Shown here one piece after another: positions 16,956-46,204 of a stretch of 46,204 bases of DNA (its first letter is position 1; each line of letters starts with the position of its first letter). A model generated the notes under the pieces. That model did no database searches, was not told where the DNA came from, and was given only the letters and a program-made list of their open reading frames with translations. The translations under genes were made by a program, and so were the position numbers. Origin of the DNA: a virus; IMG/VR virus record IMGVR_UViG_3300045282_000046, positions 1-46,204 of that record, one strand, 5' to 3'.

Positions 16956-19478
16956 TTAAAGTTTTACCTTCTCCATCTCTGACCATCGATGCAGTCCTTT
17001 CTTATCTGGTACGAACTTTTTCTTTTCATCATCCCATAGTGATGGGTAACTCATCTTCAACTCACATGGAATACTAAGTGGCTCAGGCTTTCTTTTGTTG
17101 TACACATCCTGAATTATGATAGGTGACTCAGCATACTTTTTCATAATCTTCAATGCAGTCTTGGCAGTTTTTGGCGATGCTAGTGCGACAAGGTTGTCAT
17201 GCACGTCAATACAAACTCGTGCGTCTACTGGCCACTCGTCATCCTCCTCTGATTGATACCAAACCTGGACGATCTTATCTCCAATTGTTGACTGTGCATA
17301 GAATGCAATAATTGATTCGAGAACGGTCTCGTCAATGCGTTGAATGACACGAAGTTCTCGACCGAATGCATTTGTAATTGTTCTTGTCAGACGAAATTGC
17401 TTCTCCTCTTCATGCCACCACAATTCCAACTCAGGTGTGATCTTGTGATACAACACAAATGCTTGACTAGCCTCGTTGTACGGCAACTGCGTAACTTGAG
17501 ATAATCTAAAACGTTCCATTCGGTAATTTAGGCCATGTCGGCAACGCTTTGCTACATATCTCTTGGTTGGTTTTGGCGTAGCATCTTCAGTCCAATCATC
17601 TTTTGGTATTTGATCATATGGAATTTTGAACATCTCGGATGCTAATGCCCTATGACAGTCGTAACCATTACCTAACTTAGCTAACGCAAATTGTTCTTTC
17701 CACTTCGGTATATCTGCACGAAACGAAACAACTTGAGCTTCTGCCTGAGCTAAATCGAAATACAAAAATACCATACCAGGGTCAGCCACATACATACCCC
17801 TAGCTCGCATAGGTTGGTTCTGCATGTTTCCGCCTTCTTTAGTGACAAGCAGACTAGAACTAGAAAGTCTACCAGGAGCCTTAGAAACCCCAAATTGTTT
17901 ATATTCGCAGCGAAATCGTGAGTCATTTGATATTCTCCCCTCTGCGTATACACTCATGAACTTATGATCTTCTTTGTATTTGTCGATCTCGATTAGAAGT
18001 TGTTTGGCTATTGGACTTGTTCGAGGATTTTTCATCATCTCTTTTCGATTGTTGTCATCGGTGGACGTGCCTCGGCCAATGAGTTTGAGTCGATTGAAAT
18101 ACAAGTCCTGCATCTGCGGAGCGGAATTGAGGTTAGGTCGGTAGTTTGTATCCTCAGTTAGGTCTGTAATAATTCCGTATACTTTCTCTCGTTGTTCATC
18201 TACATCCTCCCTAACTTGTTCCAATATCTTTTCTTTAATCGGAACATCTACACCGACACCATGAACAGTCGCACGGACGAGGTGAGGCTGTGCTCGCATG
18301 ACATGATTGAAAAAGAACTTATCTAACTTGCGCTTCTTCAATTCAGCCTGTTGCTTTTCAAACACTGCATATGTAATTGCACAATCACAGCAGTTGTACT
18401 CCCAAAACGCATCGATGTTTCCACCTTCGTACCAGCCGTCGGCGTCGTCTTTGTAGAACGGATGATTGGTGTATTGCGTTGTCATGAACGCGAGGCTGTG
18501 AGGCAGTTGCGGATATAGTGTATGGTGTCCGAGTAATATGTCGAACCAAAAATCGATCTCCAATTTTAAACCTAACCACATAAAATACGAGTCGAACTGA
18601 GCATTCTGTGCAATCATGTTTTTTGTATCTGCGAGCTTTTGAATAGCCAATAAAATATCTACCTCCTGACTTTTCGTATACATATTTTTAGTGGCACTTC
18701 GAAATGCGATGCAAATGGCTTCATGTGGGTTGTTTGATAAACCAATACAAGCAACCTCTTCGTTGATTGCTTCGGTGTCGAGAGCGATTGGTCTAATATC
18801 TCTTTGCATGTCAGAGATATAAGCTATAGCTTCACGATACGTCGGATTAATTATCTTATTAATGTTGTGTGGCTTAAACACGCCCTTCTCGACTTGAGCT
18901 ATACGCATAAGGTCCATTAAGAAGAATGGCTCAAAGCGAGGCTCACGACCTTCGACGACGTATGCAGGATTAAACGTGACAATAACCTGACCGAGCCTAC
19001 CGTTGGGCAGAACTGTATCTAGAACCGAACCTCTCCATTTAGTTATGCCTGTATTTTCTGTGAGTGCTTCAAGTGCATAGTTACCAAGTGCGACTATGAT
19101 CTTGACATTTGGTAGTTGTGTTAGCTCCCATCGAAGCAGTTCGGACCATTTATTGAACTCATCTGCTGTAATAGGATTGCGCAGATTGCCTTTACGAGAC
19201 AAGCTGATCTGGCGTTTGACCACATTCGTGCAGTAAATATTATCTTGTGTGTAACCAAACTTCTGGACATGGCCCCATAGAAGTTTACCTGAACCACCAA
19301 CGAATGGTTTTGGTTTTGGCCTATGCCGAACTTCTGCCTCACCAGGACCTTCACCAACAAACGCGATTGAGGCGTTGAGCGGGCCACTTGATAGAACATC
19401 TACTGATAGGTTCTGTTCATACGCATGTGCGGTAAATGTATCATCGAGCAATTCACGAGTAAGTTTGACCTTTTTCAT
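16956..19478 (-). CDS. Family A DNA polymerase with N-terminal UDG-like domain, 840 aa
   Basis: Residues ~30-200 match the uracil-DNA glycosylase superfamily (GEGPGEAE at 42-49, FVGGSGKLL at 59-67, FNPAYVV at 169-175). The usual His of the last motif is Asn, and the Cys set of Fe-S type UDGs is missing. Residues ~228-375 are a 3'-5' exonuclease with the full DEDDy set (Asp234, Glu236, Asp296, Tyr361, Asp365). Residues ~400-840 are PolA-type: motif A with Asp575 and Glu580, O-helix with Arg640, Lys644, His648 (Phe762 of E. coli Pol I) and Tyr652, motif C His760-Asp761-Asn762 instead of His-Asp-Glu. It is the replicative polymerase. The AGGTG site overlaps the end of the PadR-like gene, 1 nt away, so the two are coupled. 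Confidence 0.92.
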   Translation of the reverse strand: MKKVKLTRELLDDTFTAHAYEQNLSVDVLSSGPLNASIAFVGEGPGEAEVRHRPKPKPFVGGSGKLLWGHVQKFGYTQDNIYCTNVVKRQISLSRKGNLRNPITADEFNKWSELLRWELTQLPNVKIIVALGNYALEALTENTGITKWRGSVLDTVLPNGRLGQVIVTFNPAYVVEGREPRFEPFFLMDLMRIAQVEKGVFKPHNINKIINPTYREAIAYISDMQRDIRPIALDTEAINEEVACIGLSNNPHEAICIAFRSATKNMYTKSQEVDILLAIQKLADTKNMIAQNAQFDSYFMWLGLKLEIDFWFDILLGHHTLYPQLPHSLAFMTTQYTNHPFYKDDADGWYEGGNIDAFWEYNCCDCAITYAVFEKQQAELKKRKLDKFFFNHVMRAQPHLVRATVHGVGVDVPIKEKILEQVREDVDEQREKVYGIITDLTEDTNYRPNLNSAPQMQDLYFNRLKLIGRGTSTDDNNRKEMMKNPRTSPIAKQLLIEIDKYKEDHKFMSVYAEGRISNDSRFRCEYKQFGVSKAPGRLSSSSLLVTKEGGNMQNQPMRARGMYVADPGMVFLYFDLAQAEAQVVSFRADIPKWKEQFALAKLGNGYDCHRALASEMFKIPYDQIPKDDWTEDATPKPTKRYVAKRCRHGLNYRMERFRLSQVTQLPYNEASQAFVLYHKITPELELWWHEEEKQFRLTRTITNAFGRELRVIQRIDETVLESIIAFYAQSTIGDKIVQVWYQSEEDDEWPVDARVCIDVHDNLVALASPKTAKTALKIMKKYAESPIIIQDVYNKRKPEPLSIPCELKMSYPSLWDDEKKKFVPDKKGLHRWSEMEKVKL

Positions 19479-19479
19479 T

Positions 19480-19764
19480 TTACACCTGTAACTCTTTGAG
19501 AATTTCTATGACTTGTTTGCGCCCTTCATTTGTTAACTTGTGATACTTCCGTCTAGGATAATAGGCATTTTTAGGACTGTTCTCATATCGAGAAGTTGTC
19601 CATCCTATAAACTCTAAGCGTTGAAGCATTGGATAAATCGTACCACAGTCCATCGGAATATCTTCTTTGATTTCTGTACCACAACAGCCTTTATCAGGAG
19701 ATTTTAAGAGTTTGTGAAACACTCTAAGTGTGTAATAGGTTAAATAGCCCGGATAATCGTTCAT
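19480..19764 (-). CDS. PadR-like winged-helix transcriptional regulator, 94 aa
   Basis: The sequence follows the PadR N-terminal domain: an N-terminal helix (YLTYYTLRVFHKLL), a recognition region (GTEIKEDIPMDCGTIYPMLQ), then RLEFIGW and a Tyr/Arg wing ending KYHKLTNEGRKQV. PadR proteins bind dyad operators as dimers and often repress themselves. It lacks the long C-terminal dimerisation helix of larger PadRs. ATG 19764 is chosen for its CAGGAG site; palindrome copy 12 lies 17 nt upstream. It is one of two good candidates for the palindrome-binding protein (inference). Confidence 0.75.
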   Translation of the reverse strand: MNDYPGYLTYYTLRVFHKLLKSPDKGCCGTEIKEDIPMDCGTIYPMLQRLEFIGWTTSRYENSPKNAYYPRRKYHKLTNEGRKQVIEILKELQV

Positions 19765-19781
19765 TTTGTTTTCTCCTGTGC

Positions 19782-19796
19782 TGTGTGACTCACACA
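19782..19796. repeat. Palindrome copy 12
   Basis: Exact copy, centre C at 19789. It provides the helicase stop codon (TGA at 19790-19792, minus strand) and lies 17 nt upstream of the PadR-like start. Confidence 0.95.
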
Positions 19797-21004
19797 CTTC
19801 GCATCGACAGACCCATCGCGCGTCGGTCGGTCACAATAATCACATGGTGTTTTGCACGTGTGATTGCTGTGTAGAGATTTCGTCTATTAAGCAGATACGC
19901 CTGACCTGCACATATACAATAGATAATCGTTTCAAACTCAGACCCCTGCGCTTTGTGTGTTGTAATTGCATAACCCAACTCGATCTGCTTTCGTGGATCG
20001 TAGTCGATGACTGTGCCGTGGTACTGACTAAATGTCTTCATTCTCGGTGGTATGAAAATTCCTTTATTCTCCAATGTCCTTAATTCTAACGTACCATCTT
20101 CTTCATCTACCCAATTAACTGTTCCGATTTCACCATTGAACAATCTTAACTTGTAATCATTTTTGATCCACAAAAACTTATCATTTGCTCGAATTGAGAG
20201 CATGTTTTCCTTTTTGTCATATCGATCTAACCTGAGCACTTCACCCTTTGGATTAAACCTCAGTTGCAATGTTGGATTAACTCGCATTGTGCCAAACTTG
20301 CCCTTACGAGTTGGCATGATGATCTGATGACTTGTGCCCGCAAAGTCTTGCGTTACCATATCAAGCATCATCTTTAATGGGTTGTCACTGTACAGAATAT
20401 TAAACCTGTCATTTTTGATTGGTATTCGTTTGGCTAGTATGCGTGCGGCGTTAGATACAATTGCGTCATCACTTCGGAAGTTATATGACAACTCAACCAT
20501 TGGAAACTTATCCAAGACCATAAAAAAAGGTGGTGTACCTTCTTCGACTGGTGGGAGTTGATTGTTATCACCGAATAATCTAATCACACCTCTCTTTGGA
20601 AGTGCGTCCATGAGTTGTCTGTATAGTGTTGGACCAATCATTGATGCTTCGTCTACAATTACACACTGTTGCGGAAGTGGATTGCCTTTGCAAAATCTTG
20701 GCTCACCTGGAATACTTGGATCATTTGGATCGTCTGGTTCACCAGGGACAGGAAAACCAAGCAGTCGATGAATTGTAACTGCTGGGATTTTGGTTAGTTC
20801 TTCAACGCGACGCGCAGCACGACCAGTAGGAGCACACAAAACGGTAGAGACGCTGTGATGACCTAACTCTTTGTACATCTCTCCGAGAACTAGTGTTTTA
20901 CCTGTACCAGCACCGCCAGTTATACCTACGATTGGGTTAGCTAAGTCACAGCCAAGCTCGACTGCGTGTTGTTGTTCGAGAGTGAGTTTCTTTTGATTGT
21001 TCAT
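19790..21004 (-). CDS. RecD-like superfamily 1B DNA helicase, 404 aa
   Basis: Motif I GGAGTGKT (30-37), motif II DEAS (118-121), motif III GDNNQLPP (145-152), an SH3-like insert region (~260-330), motif V YAITTHKAQGSE (~345-356) and motif VI NLYTAITRAK (~377-386). This is the RecD2/Dda-type 5'-3' helicase order without a RecD N-terminal extension. Presumably it unwinds at the fork or in recombination with the polymerase just downstream. The last codons Ser-Val-stop are inside palindrome copy 12; the start overlaps the stop of the 62-aa gene by 4 nt. Confidence 0.9.
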   Translation of the reverse strand: MNNQKKLTLEQQHAVELGCDLANPIVGITGGAGTGKTLVLGEMYKELGHHSVSTVLCAPTGRAARRVEELTKIPAVTIHRLLGFPVPGEPDDPNDPSIPGEPRFCKGNPLPQQCVIVDEASMIGPTLYRQLMDALPKRGVIRLFGDNNQLPPVEEGTPPFFMVLDKFPMVELSYNFRSDDAIVSNAARILAKRIPIKNDRFNILYSDNPLKMMLDMVTQDFAGTSHQIIMPTRKGKFGTMRVNPTLQLRFNPKGEVLRLDRYDKKENMLSIRANDKFLWIKNDYKLRLFNGEIGTVNWVDEEDGTLELRTLENKGIFIPPRMKTFSQYHGTVIDYDPRKQIELGYAITTHKAQGSEFETIIYCICAGQAYLLNRRNLYTAITRAKHHVIIVTDRRAMGLSMRSV

Positions 21005-21189
21005 TTGTGGTCGTACTCCTCTTTTATTTTCAATGAAAATCTACCTTGCGGCAAAAATTCATCAGCGGCTTTTCTTATAGCAGCAATGAATTGTCGTGCA
21101 TTCTCTACTTCTTCTGCGCCGGCTGGAGTTTCTTGCATTGTTGTTGGATATATGTGTGACTTAATATGTACTGCTCGTAGAATTCTCAT
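21001..21189 (-). CDS. Hypothetical protein, 62 aa
   Basis: Small charged protein with one helical stretch (ENARQFIAAIRKAADEFL) and no known motif. It overlaps by 4 nt both the helicase start downstream and the ribbon-helix-helix gene stop upstream, making a tightly coupled three-gene block. No function can be given. Confidence 0.65.
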   Translation of the reverse strand: MRILRAVHIKSHIYPTTMQETPAGAEEVENARQFIAAIRKAADEFLPQGRFSLKIKEEYDHK

Positions 21190-21473
21190 ACCTTAACTCC
21201 TGGTGGTAGTGTTGGGTCGATACGAACATGATCAGGTTCGACTTCTGGTACTTCTTCGACTATACGTCTAACAGCGGCACCATTCATGACTTGTTGAGCA
21301 CTTTGGATAACTACAAGTCTCATAAACTCAGATGTTTTCAGACCTACACGATGTGCTGCGGCGTTGACCATCTTACGATCGTTGTGAGTACACCTAAAAA
21401 CTATCTGTGCAGAACCGACCTTAGACAGTTCGTACAGATCAATTATAACTTTAGAAACAATTTCTTCGGTCAT
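21186..21473 (-). CDS. Ribbon-helix-helix (Arc/CopG-type) DNA-binding protein, 95 aa
   Basis: Residues ~22-62 fit a ribbon-helix-helix fold: strand AQIVFRCT, helix NDRKMVNAAAHRVG, turn-Lys-Thr-Ser, helix SEFMRLVVIQSAQQV. The C-terminal 30 residues are acidic and Pro-rich. Such dimers bind palindromic operators, often cooperatively at many sites. ATG 21473 fits the GTTGGAG site better than the in-frame TTG at 21485. Palindrome copy 13, the most extended dyad of the genome, lies 29 nt upstream, consistent with self-regulation. Candidate binder of the dispersed palindrome (inference). Confidence 0.7.
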   Translation of the reverse strand: MTEEIVSKVIIDLYELSKVGSAQIVFRCTHNDRKMVNAAAHRVGLKTSEFMRLVVIQSAQQVMNGAAVRRIVEEVPEVEPDHVRIDPTLPPGVKV

Positions 21474-21493
21474 GACAAACTCCAACTTTTAGG

Positions 21494-21526
21494 CTTCGGC
21501 ACTGTGTGAGTCACACAGTGCCGAAG
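21494..21526. repeat. Palindrome copy 13 with 16-bp arms
   Basis: The exact 15-bp core at 21503-21517 (centre G at 21510) is extended on both sides by CTTCGGCAC and its complement, giving a 33-base perfect dyad between the ssDNA-binding-like gene and the ribbon-helix-helix gene. In leftward RNA it would form a very stable hairpin; no U-run follows, so it is not a standard terminator. Possible roles: RNA stabiliser, processing site or operator. Confidence 0.95.
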
Positions 21527-27193: not shown

Positions 27194-27430
27194 TTACTTA
27201 GTTGACACCTCCATCCAATCAGTTGCTAACAAATCACTTTGCGAACACAACCAAGGAACCACATCGCCTTGTGCTGTGTACACATAAACATATGGCAGTG
27301 TCATCTTCGAGTATGCATCAGGCATCTGTAACCTGAGCCACATGTCTTTGCCATTCCAGCCTGCGCGACAGACTGCGCTTCCTATTCGCATCGCTTCAAT
27401 GGCGGTGCCAATTCCAAACTGATCATTCAT
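27194..27430 (-). CDS. DUF2829-like protein, 78 aa
   Basis: Recognisable DUF2829 pattern: an early GTAIEAMRIGSAVCRAGWNG segment, then KDMWLRL, LPYVYVYTAQGDVVPWLCSQ and DLLATDWMEV. A small domain of unknown function frequent in phages. ATG 27430 follows CAGGAGAACTGAA. The 67-nt gap to the upstream gene holds palindrome copy 19. Confidence 0.85.
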   Translation of the reverse strand: MNDQFGIGTAIEAMRIGSAVCRAGWNGKDMWLRLQMPDAYSKMTLPYVYVYTAQGDVVPWLCSQSDLLATDWMEVSTK

Positions 27431-27496
27431 TTCAGTTCTCCTGTTGAATAACAACCAATACACCAATTTCCGTGACTACAATCAGGACATGCCTGC

Positions 27497-29356: not shown

Positions 29357-29686
29357 TTACTCCTCTTCACTGAGATCAACATTCCTAACTGTATCTTTCC
29401 AGACGATCTGTGCACACAACTGATTGATATCGAAGTTGCCACTGATGAACACACTATCGCCTTTAGCTATTACAGTTGGCACACCTTCATACGAACTGTT
29501 CTGTAAAAGCTCAACCAATGACGCACGTTTAACCTTCTTAGCCTGTTTCTTAGGCAGGAGTCGCATGACTGTACAGAATATGCGTTGGAGTAGTTCGTCT
29601 CGGGCATGGCCGCTGTGTGACTCACACAGCGACTCGGCTTGGTGTTTTAATAGCAATGCCTGTTGTTGTGTGTATGAATCGATCAT
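29357..29686 (-). CDS. Hypothetical protein, 109 aa
   Basis: Helical, basic in the middle (RLLPKKQAKKVKRASLVELL), acidic at the end. The N-terminal third runs through palindrome copy 23, read as Leu-Cys-Glu-Ser-His-Ser. ATG 29686 follows GGAGAGA; it is the first gene after the promoter at 29723-29751. Function unknown. Confidence 0.6.
   Translation of the reverse strand: MIDSYTQQQALLLKHQAESLCESHSGHARDELLQRIFCTVMRLLPKKQAKKVKRASLVELLQNSSYEGVPTVIAKGDSVFISGNFDINQLCAQIVWKDTVRNVDLSEEE
29614..29628. repeat. Palindrome copy 23 (intragenic)
   Basis: Exact copy, centre C at 29621, extended to a GC-TGTGTGA-C-TCACACA-GC dyad, inside the 109-aa gene. Confidence 0.95.
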
Positions 29687-29831: not shown

Positions 29832-29865
29832 AAAAAACCCCTGCTGTGTGAGTCACACAGCAGGG
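29832..29865 (-). terminator. Rho-independent terminator built on palindrome copy 24
   Basis: Minus strand: CCCTGCTGTGTGA-C-TCACACAGCAGGG followed by G and six T. The exact 15-bp palindrome (29845-29859, centre 29852) is the core of the stem, extended by six pairing bases on each side. It lies just after the stop of the 76-aa gene at 29871 and upstream of the next promoter. Confidence 0.85.
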
Positions 29866-30361: not shown

Positions 30362-31279
30362 TCAATCCTTGGCCCAATTAGTCAGCCAAGTATCAATCGC
30401 ACTCTCAACCTGCTTAACACTCGTTATTTGTGCTGGCCCTGGGTTTTTCACCCTAGCCAACATCTCGATCACACTTTTGCATAGTGCGTTCAATGCCTGA
30501 CCTGGATTTGACAACTGCGTTGCAGCGTCGCCTCGTGTATTACTACCGCGATGTATCGTACCGCCATGACTTTCCTTTGCCTTTGCCGCAAGAGCCGTGA
30601 AACTTGGCCTTTCATTTAGCTTCGTTTCATTGCCCTTACTGTCCGTAACAGTCTGCTTTTCGTTCAAGACAACACTAGCCTGACCGAATTGCTTTTTCAC
30701 AGCAGGACCGGACAACATAAGGCTACCCGAAGCCTTATCCATCTTAACATCCATGTCCTGCTGTATGATCGCATCGGCTGCAAGCTCGCATTTCTTGACC
30801 ATGTGCAGAAAGTTCGATCGCATTGTCGTCTTGCGCTTGTATGCATCCGATTGCTTGTCTTCATTTGGCATTGGGAAGAATTGAGCAACCGACTTGGCAT
30901 AGGTGACACGTTGCTTTGTCTTATCACCACTACCAACTGTGATCACATCGCGAAAACCAAGCGCAATTCCGATTTGATCGTTCAGCAAGCCTTGCGCTTT
31001 CGCGTCCGTACCGGATGCGACAGACAACTTAATCGAAGTATCCGCCTTTGCAGCCTTAACAATCGCCTGAGTTAATTGTGCGAGCAAGTTATACGTTTTG
31101 CTTTGTGCACCAGTGATTAACTCACGTCCTTTTGTTTCGTCCGCATAAGCCTGAGCTAACCCTGCAATGACTATCGGCCCTACGTCCTTAGACATTGCCC
31201 CGGCTTTGATTTTAGGAATGATCGATACTGCGGTTTCAACTACCGGGTCAGGAGCAACTAACTTTTGTTTAGCAGCCAT
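30362..31279 (-). CDS. Hypothetical early protein, 305 aa
   Basis: Lys/Ala-rich soluble protein without membrane segments. Residues ~15-105 are helical (IIPKIKAGAMSKDVGPIVIA), then a segment with YAKSVAQFFPMPNEDKQSDA and a C-terminal helix (SVKQVESAIDTWLTNW). ATG 31279 follows GGAGGTAAATCTA. It is the largest unknown of the early arm and has its own structured upstream region (31295-31534). A DNA-associated or host-takeover role is conceivable but not supported by a motif. Confidence 0.65.
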   Translation of the reverse strand: MAAKQKLVAPDPVVETAVSIIPKIKAGAMSKDVGPIVIAGLAQAYADETKGRELITGAQSKTYNLLAQLTQAIVKAAKADTSIKLSVASGTDAKAQGLLNDQIGIALGFRDVITVGSGDKTKQRVTYAKSVAQFFPMPNEDKQSDAYKRKTTMRSNFLHMVKKCELAADAIIQQDMDVKMDKASGSLMLSGPAVKKQFGQASVVLNEKQTVTDSKGNETKLNERPSFTALAAKAKESHGGTIHRGSNTRGDAATQLSNPGQALNALCKSVIEMLARVKNPGPAQITSVKQVESAIDTWLTNWAKD

Positions 31280-32585: not shown

Positions 32586-32669
32586 TTTCGTCACTCCTGT
32601 ATGCAAGCACTGCAATGTCACTTGTTGCCGGGGTTTTCCGTATTCGCATTGTCAGAATATACTAATTCA

Positions 32670-32682
32670 CTATCATTGATAT
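32670..32682. promoter_or_regulatory. tet-operator-like dyad near a weak leftward promoter
   Basis: CTATCA-T-TGATAT. On the minus strand it overlaps a possible -10 (TATCAA) 18 bp after TTTACA, ahead of the 67-aa gene. Same half-sites as 28168-28188 and 34391-34407. Confidence 0.4.
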
Positions 32683-32759
32683 GCGACAAGTTGTCACAGT
32701 GTAAACGGTTCGTATACACTCGCGTAATTGTAGAAACCCACTATCTACTCAATCTTAGT

Positions 32760-32796
32760 CAATCGGTAGCGCCGTAGGCACGAGCGCTACCGATTG
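32760..32796. repeat. Hairpin H1
   Basis: CAATCGGTAGCGC, 11-base loop, then the exact complement (13-bp stem). Read on the minus strand, the inner part is CGCTCGTGCCTACGGCGCT, which recurs in H2 with one inserted G. Confidence 0.85.
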
Positions 32797-32933
32797 TATA
32801 TCACTGGCCATCTAACCTATTTCCACTCACACACCAATTTCGCTATCACTACTATCAGTTGTATCAGCCGACCGTGACCGAGGCGCGCGGCCGTCGGTAG
32901 CGCGCGAACCACACCAATTTTAATTTGCCGCAG

Positions 32934-32948
32934 TGTGTGACTCACACA
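32934..32948. repeat. Palindrome copy 27
   Basis: Exact copy, centre C at 32941, inside the non-coding block and not near any start codon. Confidence 0.95.
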
Positions 32949-33039
32949 GTCGAGTGTTTGTAAATTAGAAACTATTTGTAATTTCGCATGGTTGTGTAAT
33001 TAGAACTACGCAAGCGTGCCTGTGGCGCATCAGTTAGTT

Positions 33040-33110
33040 AACTGTTATCTAACTGTTATCTAACTGCTTGTAATTTACAAACACATTACAAACACATTAC
33101 AAACACTTAT
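33040..33110. repeat. 11-bp iteron-like direct repeats
   Basis: TAACTGTTATC occurs twice in tandem followed by TAACTG, then ACAAACACATT twice followed by ACAAACACTT. Both units are 11 bp, about one helical turn, so the repeats are in phase on the helix. Related TTTGTAAATT/TTTGTAATTT words lie at 32955-32985. Confidence 0.75.
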
Positions 33111-33287
33111 CTAACTCGGTTGTATTTTGCGAACTACACCAGTCGCAACCGGGGGGTGTATTCCCCATATTCACAAGTGCGTCGTATTGTCGCATTGACT
33201 CAGGGGCGGGCGACCGACAGGGCGGTATGGCATAGTCAGGTTAGGCTTATTGAGGTTGTAGTTATTGGGGAGGGTGTAGCTGTGGGG

Positions 33288-33302
33288 TGTGTGAGTCACA
33301 CA
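33288..33302. repeat. Palindrome copy 28
   Basis: Exact copy, centre G at 33295, inside the non-coding block. A degraded look-alike (gtgagtcagacaca) follows about 10 bp later. Confidence 0.95.
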
Positions 33303-33370
33303 GCAACGTGAGGTGAGTCAGACACAAGGATGGGGAGCGCAGAAGTGGTGTGGTGATGAAATAAATATAC

Positions 33371-33411
33371 ACACCTACGCTCGTGCCTGACGGCGCTGCG
33401 TAGGTGTGTTA
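33371..33411. repeat. Hairpin H2
   Basis: ACACACCTACGC, 17-base loop, GCGTAGGTGTGT (12-bp stem; end positions approximate). The loop region reads CGCTCGTGCCTGACGGCGCT, nearly the same as the complement strand of H1, while the outer stems differ entirely. Confidence 0.85.
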
Positions 33412-33440
33412 AGGACTAGGACAGGAATAAGGTGTGGGAT

Positions 33441-33791
33441 TTATTCGGTTTGGTCCGAATGATTATGCGACCTATAGAAACTTACTGGTACAAAGTTTAC
33501 TGATCCTGAATACGGATCAGGATCGAATTTTTCAGCAGTGTTTGTTGGTGTAGGATTTGGTTCTGGTTTTGGTGTTAGTTCATCAATGCGTTTTTGTATG
33601 GTCCTGATTAGGTCGTCGCCGCTAAGCATACCTGTTTGTGGTGAGAATAGTCGTAGTATTGTTGTGATGTTGTCATATGCATCGGCCTTAGGTTTGAGGT
33701 ACTCAACTGTAGCACGCAGTTGTGTGATTTCGTGTTTGCATCGATTGAGCATTTGAAGAGCTTCTTGATTATTCATGTCTCGAACAGTCAT
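33441..33791 (-). CDS. Hypothetical protein, 116 aa
   Basis: N-terminal coiled coil (ALQMLNRCKHEITQLRATVE), a middle GMLSGDDLIRTIQKRIDELT and a Pro-rich, acidic C-terminus. GGAGGCACTACA precedes ATG 33791. Not recognised. Among the first early genes from the leftward promoter. Confidence 0.65.
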   Translation of the reverse strand: MTVRDMNNQEALQMLNRCKHEITQLRATVEYLKPKADAYDNITTILRLFSPQTGMLSGDDLIRTIQKRIDELTPKPEPNPTPTNTAEKFDPDPYSGSVNFVPVSFYRSHNHSDQTE

Positions 33792-33821
33792 TGTAGTGCC
33801 TCCAGTTTGGTTTGAGTTAAA

Positions 33822-34103
33822 TTATGTTGGTGAGTCCGCACGTTGTTTCGGTGGCCATGACTGGTCTAGTTGATTGGGTTTAAGGTGTTTCAGTGTTTCG
33901 ACTATATCTTGTGACCACATGACATCTTCGGCCTCATCGTAGAAAACAAACACTCCAAGGTCATAATTCACAACCAAATCACCATTTCCAATCTCAGCAG
34001 TTCCATTCGATTGGAAGTTGCGTGCGACGAAATGGTTCTCTTTGACTATATCTTTCATGCCGTATATGCCGATTATTCGTCCTAGAACTCGAAGGTCTTG
34101 CAT
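33822..34103 (-). CDS. Hypothetical first early gene, 93 aa
   Basis: First gene of the leftward arm. Beta-rich (GRIIGIYGMKDIVKENHFVA, then DLVVNYDLGVFVFYDEAEDV). CGGAGACTTCG precedes the ATG, and palindrome copy 29 is 16 nt upstream. Position next to the strong promoter suggests immediate-early expression. Function unknown. Confidence 0.65.
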   Translation of the reverse strand: MQDLRVLGRIIGIYGMKDIVKENHFVARNFQSNGTAEIGNGDLVVNYDLGVFVFYDEAEDVMWSQDIVETLKHLKPNQLDQSWPPKQRADSPT

Positions 34104-34553: not shown

Positions 34554-34589
34554 ACCTGTCGAGATACGCACCCCGTTCCCTCGACAGGT
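34554..34589 (+). terminator. Stem-loop in the late leader (possible attenuator)
   Basis: ACCTGTCGAG (34554-34563) pairs with CTCGACAGGT (34580-34589); a T-rich TATTCCTTTTC follows. It lies between the possible late promoter and the first late gene, so it may be an attenuator that late transcription has to pass. Confidence 0.45.
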
Positions 34590-34606
34590 TATTCCTTTTC
34601 AGGAGG

Positions 34607-34649: not shown

Positions 34650-35039
34650 ATGACCACCGGCGCAACAGCTACAGTCCTAGGAGGCTTCTGGCCCACGAAT
34701 AGTGTGTCGAGCCTGAGTTCTATACAAGGTAAAGGGTTCGCACGACGTAAAGCTGCACAGGCTCTTGCTACAAAAGGCACACTTGCAGTGCGTCATACAG
34801 CGAGGACATTAGATGGTGTCGCACCAGGAGCAACATCTACAAAGACATTCGCTCGTGTCGTGGCAGCAGTTGAACTTGGAGGTGTTCGTGCAACCGAGGC
34901 TATTAACCTTATTAACAGAGCCACGGTTGCAGGTGATGTTACCGAGATCAACGCCGACATATTATCGGTTACAACCAGAACCACATTTGGTGCGTCGCCG
35001 CCGTCGAACAAGGACGGAAATCCATTGGGATATCGATAA
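34650..35039 (+). CDS. Hypothetical first late gene, 129 aa
   Basis: Ala/Thr/Gly-rich small protein (MTTGATATVLGGFWPTNSVS, FARRKAAQALATKGTLAV). ATG 34650 follows ACAGGAG. The stop shares bases with the small terminase start (TAATG), so the two are coupled. A head or packaging accessory is possible from position; not recognised. Confidence 0.65.
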   Translation: MTTGATATVLGGFWPTNSVSSLSSIQGKGFARRKAAQALATKGTLAVRHTARTLDGVAPGATSTKTFARVVAAVELGGVRATEAINLINRATVAGDVTEINADILSVTTRTTFGASPPSNKDGNPLGYR

Positions 35040-43280: not shown

Positions 43281-43604
43281 ATGTCTATGCATATGAACAA
43301 CAAAGACTACCACAGGTTAATGGCGCTACTTGTGGAGGTGCAGACTGAACAGCGCCTGATTAGACAAGCAGTGGAGAATATAATGAAGACGCTCGACGAA
43401 GTTCTCGATGACGTTACCGACGAAAGCTCGAAGTTGGACAGTCTCTCAACGTTTGTTGCTGGATTGAAGCAGCAGATCGCTGATGCATTGGCAGGTACGA
43501 CATTGCCATCTGCTATACAGAATAAGATCGATGCAGTGTTCGCTGGTGTTGAGGCGAACAAGGCAAAGGTCGTGAAGGCGATGGATGCGAACGTGCCTGT
43601 GTGA
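43281..43604 (+). CDS. Hypothetical coiled-coil protein, 107 aa
   Basis: Acidic helical protein (LVEVQTEQRLIRQAVENIMK, then LDEVLDDVTDESSKLDSLST) with heptad-like spacing and an Ala/Lys end. TAGGAGTGTTGT before the ATG. Ends Pro-Val-stop in palindrome copy 35. The pattern occurs in many small phage proteins near lysis genes; function unknown. Confidence 0.7.
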   Translation: MSMHMNNKDYHRLMALLVEVQTEQRLIRQAVENIMKTLDEVLDDVTDESSKLDSLSTFVAGLKQQIADALAGTTLPSAIQNKIDAVFAGVEANKAKVVKAMDANVPV

Positions 43605-43612
43605 GTCACACA
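43598..43612. repeat. Palindrome copy 35
   Basis: Exact copy, centre G at 43605. It supplies the stop of the coiled-coil gene and is followed directly by a separate hairpin. Confidence 0.95.
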
Positions 43613-44394: not shown

Positions 44395-46204
44395 ATGACC
44401 TTTGTTGAAAATAACATCGAGGAAGCTGACGACGCACAGCCTTCTACCAAGGCCGAACCGCCGCCGATTTATCGTATCTACGAAGGTAGTAAAATCCCTG
44501 TCAGTTCATCTGTTGGTAAGGTGTTCAAACGTAAATACGACGCTGCGAAAAAGGCGTATGAGCATATCTATTTACTATGGGAAGAGGCATTCAAATATTA
44601 CAACAACGATCAGTCACGAATGATTACAACGACTCGTGGCATCTTCAAGCGTGGTGATGGAACTGAAAACGTTATCCTGTCGAACCTTAACGTAATGCTT
44701 CCTGCTATCTACAGTAAAAACCCTGACATTTCGTGCTCGACTGTTGATCCAGATGATCAAGTTTTATGTGATACACTCCAAAAATTATTAAACGTTCTAT
44801 TTCAACGCAAAGACGGATTGAACGCAAAACCAAAGATTAAGAAGGCTGCTGGCATGGGCCTTCTAACTAATTTTGGAGTGTTCAAACTTGTATTTACGCA
44901 GAAGGGTGACTCTCGTGAACATGCCATTCGTTCGATGCAAGACATTGGAAATAAATTAGCTGCTGCAAAGACACAGGAGGCTGTTGATGCTCTATACGGC
45001 GAACTTGAAGCCTTGGAACAATCAATCGAAGTACACGAACCATCAGGCTTCAAACTCAAGAACTTACTGCCTCACAATCTTACAATTGATCCGTATGCAG
45101 AAGAGCCAGACGGTCTCGATGCGACGTGGATGGCAGAAGATACATTTCTTGCTACGAATTTCCTGACTGCCAAATACACCAAACCCGAGGATGTAGGTGA
45201 AGATGCCGAGGAAGATACGAAAAATCGAGTATTGGTATACAAACCTTCACATAAGGCACGTTTCGCTTCTGGTGGTGATCGTGACGATGGTATTGGTATT
45301 ATTATGGATGCTGTCAACGGTGGGAATAGCGTTCCTACTAGCTTTGCAGAAGACGAGCGTGCTGCCTATGTAAATATGTACTTTACTGAGTGTGTGTACT
45401 GGTGGGATCGACCAACACGACGATTGTTTCTATTCGAGAAGGGCGACTGGTCATGGCCAATTTGGGTGTGGGATGACCCATTGAACATTACACGATTTTT
45501 TCCATACTTTATCATTTCGTTTATCATGAGCACTGGTGGGACTGTTAGTGCTGGTGAAGTTGCATATATCTTAGATCAGCAAGACGAAATCAACGACATT
45601 AATCGTCAACGATCTAAGATACGCCGTTCGGTGTTTGACTTCTTCTTCTATAACAGTGATGCAGTCGATCCTGGTGAAGCTGAAAAATTCGTTGCTGTTC
45701 TACGCGGCGAAACACCTAACGGCAAACATATGCTTGGGGTTAAGGCTGGAGAACGTAAAATATCTGAAATTCTCGAAGCAGTTGCACCACCGTCTATTAA
45801 ATATGAGGAGCTATTTAATAAACAACCAGTGCTTGATACTGTGAATCGGATACAGAATGTTAGTGATGCATTACGAGGTGTACAGTTTAAGACAAACACA
45901 AATGTTCCTGCTGTTAATGCGTATCAAGACTCTTTGAAACTCAGTGTCGGAACAAAAATCGATGTGATTGAAGATACAATGGCCGATCTAGCACAATCAG
46001 TTGCTGAGATTGCCGTTCAGCAGTTTGACGAACAAATGGTTTCTGATCTGATTGGTACTTCTAACGCTGCCAATTGGGAACAGATGGACCTACCGACATT
46101 TAGGGCACAGTACACAGTCAATATCGTTGCTGGCTCAACAGAGAAACCTACTAGTGCATTCAAAAAACAAGAGGCGACGCAAATTATGCAGGCTGTCGGT
46201 CAGT
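44395..46204 (+). CDS. Portal protein, N-terminal part (continues at base 1)
   Basis: Large podophage-type portal, 722 aa when joined to 1-484. The N-terminus is acidic. The core has the SRMITTTRGIFKRGDGTENV and LPAIYSKNPDISCST segments, typical of portals of this class, then a helical wing and the YILDQQDEINDINRQRSKIR stem-region helix. It forms the DNA entry ring. ATG 44395 is preceded by GGGGATTTTT and palindrome copy 36. The frame is open to the window end only because the circle was cut here. Confidence 0.85.
   Translation, partial: MTFVENNIEEADDAQPSTKAEPPPIYRIYEGSKIPVSSSVGKVFKRKYDAAKKAYEHIYLLWEEAFKYYNNDQSRMITTTRGIFKRGDGTENVILSNLNVMLPAIYSKNPDISCSTVDPDDQVLCDTLQKLLNVLFQRKDGLNAKPKIKKAAGMGLLTNFGVFKLVFTQKGDSREHAIRSMQDIGNKLAAAKTQEAVDALYGELEALEQSIEVHEPSGFKLKNLLPHNLTIDPYAEEPDGLDATWMAEDTFLATNFLTAKYTKPEDVGEDAEEDTKNRVLVYKPSHKARFASGGDRDDGIGIIMDAVNGGNSVPTSFAEDERAAYVNMYFTECVYWWDRPTRRLFLFEKGDWSWPIWVWDDPLNITRFFPYFIISFIMSTGGTVSAGEVAYILDQQDEINDINRQRSKIRRSVFDFFFYNSDAVDPGEAEKFVAVLRGETPNGKHMLGVKAGERKISEILEAVAPPSIKYEELFNKQPVLDTVNRIQNVSDALRGVQFKTNTNVPAVNAYQDSLKLSVGTKIDVIEDTMADLAQSVAEIAVQQFDEQMVSDLIGTSNAANWEQMDLPTFRAQYTVNIVAGSTEKPTSAFKKQEATQIMQAVGQ
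46080..46204. repeat. 125-bp terminal redundancy of the assembly
   Basis: Identical to bases 1-125. It lies within the portal coding sequence, so it marks closure of a circular map and not a biological terminal repeat. Unit length 46,079 bp. Confidence 0.95.

Follow-up and report, generated by a model that had tools for sequence, protein, structure and literature searches.

Background

Hairpins of the sso and ssi type, which are known from rolling-circle plasmids and from filamentous and isometric phages, act on single-stranded DNA, where they start the complementary strand with the help of host enzymes. In phage lambda, two related elements, nutL and nutR, are found in inverted orientation on the divergent early transcripts. 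The IncQ plasmid RSF1010 has one hairpin site on each strand (ssiA and ssiB), the hairpins are specifically recognised, and leading-strand-only replication has been indicated (PMC4434180). In ssiA, the contacts of its RepB' protein are with the 5' tail and with the first G-C pair of the hairpin (PMC4434180). Phage HK022 carries related hairpin elements, putL and putR, which are inverted relative to each other on divergent early transcripts; putR lies about 270 nt downstream of the start site of its promoter (PMC9378689). The vRNAP promoters of phage N4 are DNA hairpins with a 3-nt loop that are recognised in single-stranded form (PMC3715699). The replication origins of uncultured phages have rarely been located, and how DNA synthesis starts in phages that have a DNA polymerase, but neither a primase nor a replicative helicase that could be recognised, is mostly guesswork.

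Here, we describe a pair of hairpins in such a phage. The window, by which we mean the whole stretch of DNA analysed (46,204 nt), ends in an exact 125-bp terminal repeat inside the portal gene (1-125 = 46080-46204), and the 46,079-bp genome therefore looks complete and circular or circularly permuted. We interpret the region from 32.7 to 33.45 kb as a bidirectional origin, with the hairpins H1 and H2 as matched single-strand sites, one per strand, that bracket the opening region. We assign this interpretation a probability of roughly 55%.

Like ssiA and ssiB of RSF1010, the phage pair consists of one inverted hairpin per strand at a putative origin. Unlike in ssiA, it is the apex that is conserved and the stem that is free; furthermore, the element resides in a tailed phage of about 45 kb, and no RepB'-like primase was found in the 11 family genomes searched. 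By analogy, the two sites may work as ssiA and ssiB do, but homology has not been shown. Because the apex is conserved instead of the tail and first pair, and because there is no recognisable cognate primase, we do not class the pair as RSF1010-type. The sso and ssi hairpins start one strand of a single-stranded intermediate, whereas here a matched pair brackets what we infer to be the origin of a double-stranded DNA phage. The put elements measure about 70 nt and contain two stem-loops, in contrast to the single phage hairpins, which have unrelated stems and few wobble pairs and are centred on a skew minimum. N4 differs in having three early promoters rather than two sites around a skew minimum; moreover, the outer stems described here are long and arbitrary, and our searches of the virion proteins (see below) found no N4-type polymerase.

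In this phage family, comparative sequence alone marks the putative origin to within a few hundred bases. It also yields an element of 40 nt whose recognition rule is clear, namely a conserved apex on an arbitrary stem. The element could serve as a new model for initiation directed by hairpins and as a simple sequence signature for origins in metagenomic phages.

Two hairpins with a common core on opposite strands

The left hairpin, H1 (32760-32796), has a perfect outer stem of 13 bp (arms 32760-32772 and 32784-32796, 100% complementary) and an 11-nt loop, and its core is read on the minus strand. The right hairpin, H2 (33369-33409, plus strand), has a perfect outer stem of 12 bp (arms 33369-33380 and 33398-33409, likewise 100% complementary) and a loop of 17 nt. 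The sequence CGCTCGTGCCT(G)ACGGCGCT is common to both and lies on opposite strands. The core of H1 is CGCTCGTGCCTACGGCGCT (minus strand, 32786 to 32768) and that of H2 is CGCTCGTGCCTGACGGCGCT (plus strand, 33378-33397), which amounts to a common core of 19 nt plus one inserted G. Folded as single-stranded DNA, H1 and H2 surpass shuffled sequences by 5.7 to 8.8 standard deviations (z of -8.3 and -5.7 for the two hairpins on the core strand).

An earlier note on this DNA had described two hairpins with a common loop in opposite orientation on perfectly paired stems of 13 and 12 bp. We could confirm this anatomy directly in the sequence, with two corrections. The position given there for H2 was off by 2 nt, and the word “loop” is slightly loose for the common core, as the stem of H1 takes up its GCGC/GCGC portion. 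The block as a whole (32586-33440) matched neither an Rfam covariance model nor a tRNA, and identities as an Rfam family, a tRNA or an intrinsic terminator were rejected for the block and its hairpins.

Conservation of the pair in related phages

A nucleotide search of phage and plasmid collections yielded no direct relatives, and short patterns derived from the single sequences of terS and of the protein encoded at 30362 did not retrieve any either. The terminase large subunit only led to relatives at 43-51% identity. There were 21 IMG/VR matches to the exact loop of the window, which were rejected as chance hits: they were unrelated and stemless and lay in apparently coding contexts. The family was found via a 15-nt palindrome, TGTGTGASTCACACA, then via a pattern consisting of the loop plus TCC/GGA, and then via a neighbouring gene. 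IMG/VR contigs that share the palindrome encode orthologues of the capsid protein of the window (85-88% identity) and of its terminase, portal, polymerase and helicase. In these relatives, the hairpin pair is located upstream of terS; its two members share the loop, are oppositely oriented and have unrelated stems. When the loop was searched together with TCC/GGA on its flanks, the pair was detected also in family members without the exact palindrome.

The core CGTGCCTN(N)CGGCG is found exactly once per strand in 13 genomes (G000, which is the present one, G002-G012 and G017, a partial record of 36 kb). In all of them the two cores are 0.4-0.65 kb apart and their orientation is fixed, and a reversed control pattern gave no matches in the whole family records. 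Because the core recurs once per strand in 12 other genomes, with complementary flanks and without any control match, a chance origin of the pair can be considered excluded on the evidence of conservation. Two genomes have variant pairs. In G013, one core is exact and the left copy has a shorter loop; in G001, both loops carry a T-to-C change (CGCGCC...GGCG), by which T.G becomes C.G. The pair is absent from G014, G015, G016 and G018, which form one clade in the polymerase tree. This clade must therefore start replication in another way, which counts against our interpretation.

For an unbiased sample, loci were fetched by the neighbouring conserved gene (34650-35039) and not by hairpin or palindrome. 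Of these, 32 loci matched over nearly the full length with an identity of 46% or higher and had no less than 1.9 kb of upstream sequence. A clear inverted pair was present in 24 of the 32 and at least one hairpin in 30, several of the other loci being truncated. Below 45% identity of the neighbouring gene, none of 16 loci had the pair. Some contigs of this sample had already been met in the earlier loop and palindrome scans. The recurrence of the loop in other phages, which had been proposed as a check on the two hairpins, is borne out: it is kept in dozens of relatives on unrelated stems. Judging by the many IMG/VR samples in which it occurs, the phage family is apparently large, uncultured and mostly from soil.

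Arbitrary stems and a conserved apex

The 34 distinct hairpins contain 412 outer pairs, 18 of which are not Watson-Crick pairs; these are mostly purine-purine and clustered beside the core. Over the innermost 8 nt of the arms, identity between hairpins is 30%, compared to 26.5% expected from base composition, and all four Watson-Crick pair types occur in each of 7 outer columns when 28 hairpins are aligned. The outer stems, noted before as unrelated and yet paired in the window, thus keep their pairing across the family. Sliding one arm reduces pairing to about a third, but this is a weak control, since the stems had been selected for pairing. The real control is provided by 42 non-family IMG/VR loci with the same loop pattern, whose outer stems are 3-6 bp long, as opposed to 6-15 bp in family loci (Mann-Whitney p=5e-11; L269, located on the same contig as G017, was scored as family).

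The central bases of the loop can vary, yet in 33 of the 34 hairpins they read G-N-A or G-N-N-A on one strand, and correspondingly T-N-C or T-N-N-C in the complement. In single-stranded DNA, loops of the GNA and GNNA types form compact structures of unusual stability. A conserved tip on different stems suggests a protein that recognises nothing but the tip and initiates DNA copying at this point. This supports the idea, put forward in the earlier note, of a factor that recognises the apex on a hairpin; the factor itself has not been identified. As to the roles considered at that time, a primer or single-strand initiation site fits best and paired RNAs are possible, but for a nick site of the HUH type there is no positive evidence. 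The early proteins scanned gave no match to a Rep-type endonuclease.

A role in RNA is the alternative that deserves most attention, although we consider it unlikely. Divergent transcripts starting near the centre would each carry a hairpin in the leader, and RNA polymerase or a phage protein would bind the apical loop, preventing pausing or termination as at putL/putR of HK022 and nutL/nutR of lambda. In line with this, the cores point outward and have the same direction as the majority of genes on their side, and the distance of the hairpins from the skew centre (about 200-350 nt) resembles the spacing of putR. The stems give a divided answer. Under a strict stem definition, wobble pairs are almost missing (2 of the 412 outer pairs), which argues against RNA; when G.T pairs are allowed, stem extensions use 24 G.T versus 5 A.C, a mild RNA-like signal that arises partly from the G-rich strand and the inner T.G position. 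The geometry would suit leaders of divergent early transcripts, but a rightward transcript through H2 would be antisense to two genes (33441-34103) before it reached the first rightward gene of the window, which starts at 34650, and in the relatives examined the first rightward gene likewise begins only about 0.3-1.4 kb past the right hairpin. There is no conspicuous promoter between the two hairpins of the window, and the G-N(N)-A loop rule applies to the strand opposite the outward transcript.

Coincidence with the GC-skew minimum

The minimum of the genome-wide detrended cumulative GC skew was located at 33145-33155 (position 33150). It falls between the hairpins in 12 of the 13 genomes with an intact pair, at -26 to +122 bp from the midpoint; the exception, which counts against our interpretation, is G003, with its minimum about 1.3 kb away from the middle of the pair. 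When the interval was removed, the minimum was still close to the interval edges in most genomes. The 13 genomes are related and hence do not represent independent trials. That the pair coincides with the switch in skew is an observation, from which origin function is a strong inference; as far as sequence comparison can establish this, we regard it as very likely that the hairpin block is the origin region. The earlier suggestion that the replication origin may be found here is supported, and the skew analysis proposed with it does not place the origin elsewhere.

Nearly all conserved genes are co-directional and point away from the block. Because the genes diverge in this manner, transcription is a confounder and could contribute to the skew around the block. 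The gene immediately to the right of H2 (33441-33791, minus strand, 116 aa) has a coding-strand skew of -0.25 (-0.35 at third positions). This is opposite to the minus-strand genes on the left of H1, 19 of 20 of which show a positive coding-strand skew of up to +0.31. The reversed skew is as expected of replication and speaks for it, and this is the only gene of the window that clearly separates replication from transcription. Its neighbour (33822-34103) is ambiguous, with a skew of 0.03 overall and -0.16 at third positions. A second observation that favours replication is that, in 14 of 15 genomes, the skew at third positions becomes weaker with growing distance from the block (r from -0.39 to -0.65); the decay is absent in the partial record G017.

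In the mechanism that we propose, the duplex would open between the hairpins, in the segment that is rich in repeats and asymmetric between strands, close to the skew minimum at 33150. One hairpin would fold on each exposed strand, where the arbitrary outer stem would do no more than present a small apical structure, consisting of a GCC/GGC mini-stem with a G-N(N)-A or T-N(N)-C loop beside an asymmetric internal loop. One trans-acting factor would read this apex on both strands and position the priming or loading machinery, and one leading strand would depart in each direction. Our confidence in the parts of this scheme differs. We infer with moderate confidence that the hairpins act as single-stranded DNA. 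Their use as single-strand initiation or loading sites we hold to be slightly better than an even chance, there being no experiment and no identified factor. Which step is performed, priming or loading, and whether synthesis proceeds by strand displacement or on the leading strand only, are weak inferences.

The segment between the hairpins

The iterons that the earlier note had seen between the hairpins are real and consist of 11-bp direct repeats in tandem on the plus strand, with 2.5 copies of TAACTGTTATC at 33039-33066 and 2.9 copies of TTACAAACACA at 33075-33106. When short tandem arrays were collected from 13 genomes, 37 of 112 fell in the inter-hairpin intervals of about 550 bp. Such arrays are present between the hairpins in 11 of the 13 genomes; their period is mostly 11, and the sequence of the unit varies. 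A third copy of the core, CGTGCCTGTGGCGC, lies at 33015-33028 on the plus strand. It is stemless (never more than 5 bp), and degenerate core copies occupy the equivalent position in G003, G005, G007 and G008.

Comparing sequences by eye, we found a palindrome of the type TGCGACA-N3-TGTCGCA in the centre of the block, which in many genomes is followed by TTGAC and a run of G. In the window this is TGCGTCGTATTGTCGCA with TTGAC and the G-rich run (33178-33199, plus strand), and the counterpart in the centre of relatives is TGCGACAATATGACGCATTGAC with a G-run. Palindromes of this class recur on the flanks as well as in the centre of the putative origin block (32680-32700 and 33178-33194; also G006, G010, G012, G014 and G018) and occur even in genomes without the hairpins.

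Two further palindromes of 15 nt lie in the segment, TGTGTGACTCACACA at 32934-32948, which is one of 36 in the genome, and TGTGTGAGTCACACA at 33288-33302. The 36 copies of the TGTGTGASTCACACA type in the window compare to 0.37 expected; they are apparently mostly situated near gene boundaries (e.g. 1608-1622, 21503-21517, 29845-29859 and 43598-43612). In relatives, the versions of this palindrome change symmetrically (TGTTTGACTCAAACA, TGTATGASTCA...), which suggests that one phage regulator may use them throughout the genome as sites similar to operators or stoperators. A ribbon-helix-helix (NikA-like) protein (21186-21485, minus strand), which is conserved in 19 of 19 genomes compared, is a candidate binder, for which there are no binding data. 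No 15-nt palindrome of this type was found in the terminase relatives at 43-51% identity (L024-L094, other IMG/VR contigs).

These elements bear on a further alternative, which we rate as rather improbable. Cruciforms at the borders of the origin could be bound by an origin-binding or partition-like DNA-binding protein, which would loop or melt the inner segment without a primer being made at the hairpins. The inverted arrangement, the fixed spacing range of 0.4-0.65 kb, and the 11-bp repeats and operator-like palindromes in between are compatible with such a protein, and a possible candidate co-occurs with the hairpins. This is a 109-aa, fast-evolving protein (29357-29686, minus strand) that is encoded in 15 of 15 genomes with hairpins and in 0 of 4 without, the only plausible gene that we found to track them. 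However, the contrast rests on a single clade difference, and the protein is poorly conserved, with a structure model that gave no fold match. The cruciform reading, moreover, cannot be told from our single-strand reading by sequence. As the cognate factor of the hairpins, the 109-aa protein is a weak candidate.

Replication proteins

Replication genes of the window include a family-A DNA polymerase with an N-terminal uracil-DNA-glycosylase domain (16956-19478, minus strand) and an SF1 helicase similar to exonuclease V and Dda (19790-21004, minus strand). DnaB_C, DnaG zinc ribbon, D5_N and Prim-Pol models found no match in 11 family genomes, but did so in control genomes. A RepB'-like primase of the archaeo-eukaryotic type was likewise not detected in the 11 genomes by Prim-Pol, D5_N or DnaG; a RepB'-specific model was not included. 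An unknown or very divergent primase is not excluded. We identified no initiator, primase or other hairpin-binding protein, and the conserved protein at 30362-31279 was rejected as a recognisable initiator after it had matched no family, PDB sequence or fold.

Because no primase or DnaB-type helicase was found, the hairpin sites would fill an apparent gap, supplying a function that the phage seems to miss. As a tentative and rather doubtful generalisation, tailed phages without a primase may start both leading strands from single-stranded DNA hairpins read at the apex, in a leading-strand or strand-displacement mode, with drifting stems and co-evolving apices. If only the apex is read, stems would be free to drift because nothing but their pairing matters, and the two apices would change together, being read by one and the same factor.

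Gene context and remaining alternatives

In the window, terS is found about 1.6 kb to the right of the hairpin block (35039), a proximity that could point to packaging (pac/cos) or recombination sites beside the small terminase gene. We consider this very unlikely, as a packaging site would not be expected to show a symmetric layout with one site per strand around the skew minimum, and the relatives compared show no inversion of the interval. If the phage injected an RNA polymerase that used the hairpins as promoters in the manner of N4, this would account for the small stem and the 3-nt GNA-type loop, given that the early promoters of N4 are also hairpins with 3-nt loops (PMC3715699), but neither Pfam nor PDB gave a match to an RNA polymerase for the largest virion protein family, which makes this reading highly improbable. 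Intrinsic terminators can hardly be upheld in spite of a T-rich stretch after H2 on the minus strand (ATATTTATTT), since the 9 nt past the stem contain on average only 1.6 T on the core strand or 3.3 T on the other (n=34 hairpins) and a strict terminator scan selects neither H1 nor H2.

A search with the phage capsid against GTDB bacterial genomes for a possible host gave no match. The early genes also encode a Sak4/AAA_24 ATPase, in addition to the ribbon-helix-helix protein, and a DUF669 protein, the match of which is under the curated cut-off. A PadR-like transcriptional regulator (19480-19797, minus strand) sits between the polymerase and helicase genes, and a Tad2-like (Thoeris anti-defence 2) domain gave a strong match (E 4e-21) at 27194-27466 on the minus strand. 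Another hairpin, with differing loops, lies about 500 bp upstream of terS (34555-34590 in the window; L183, L184 and L125); several relatives have it at a similar position between terS and the putative origin.
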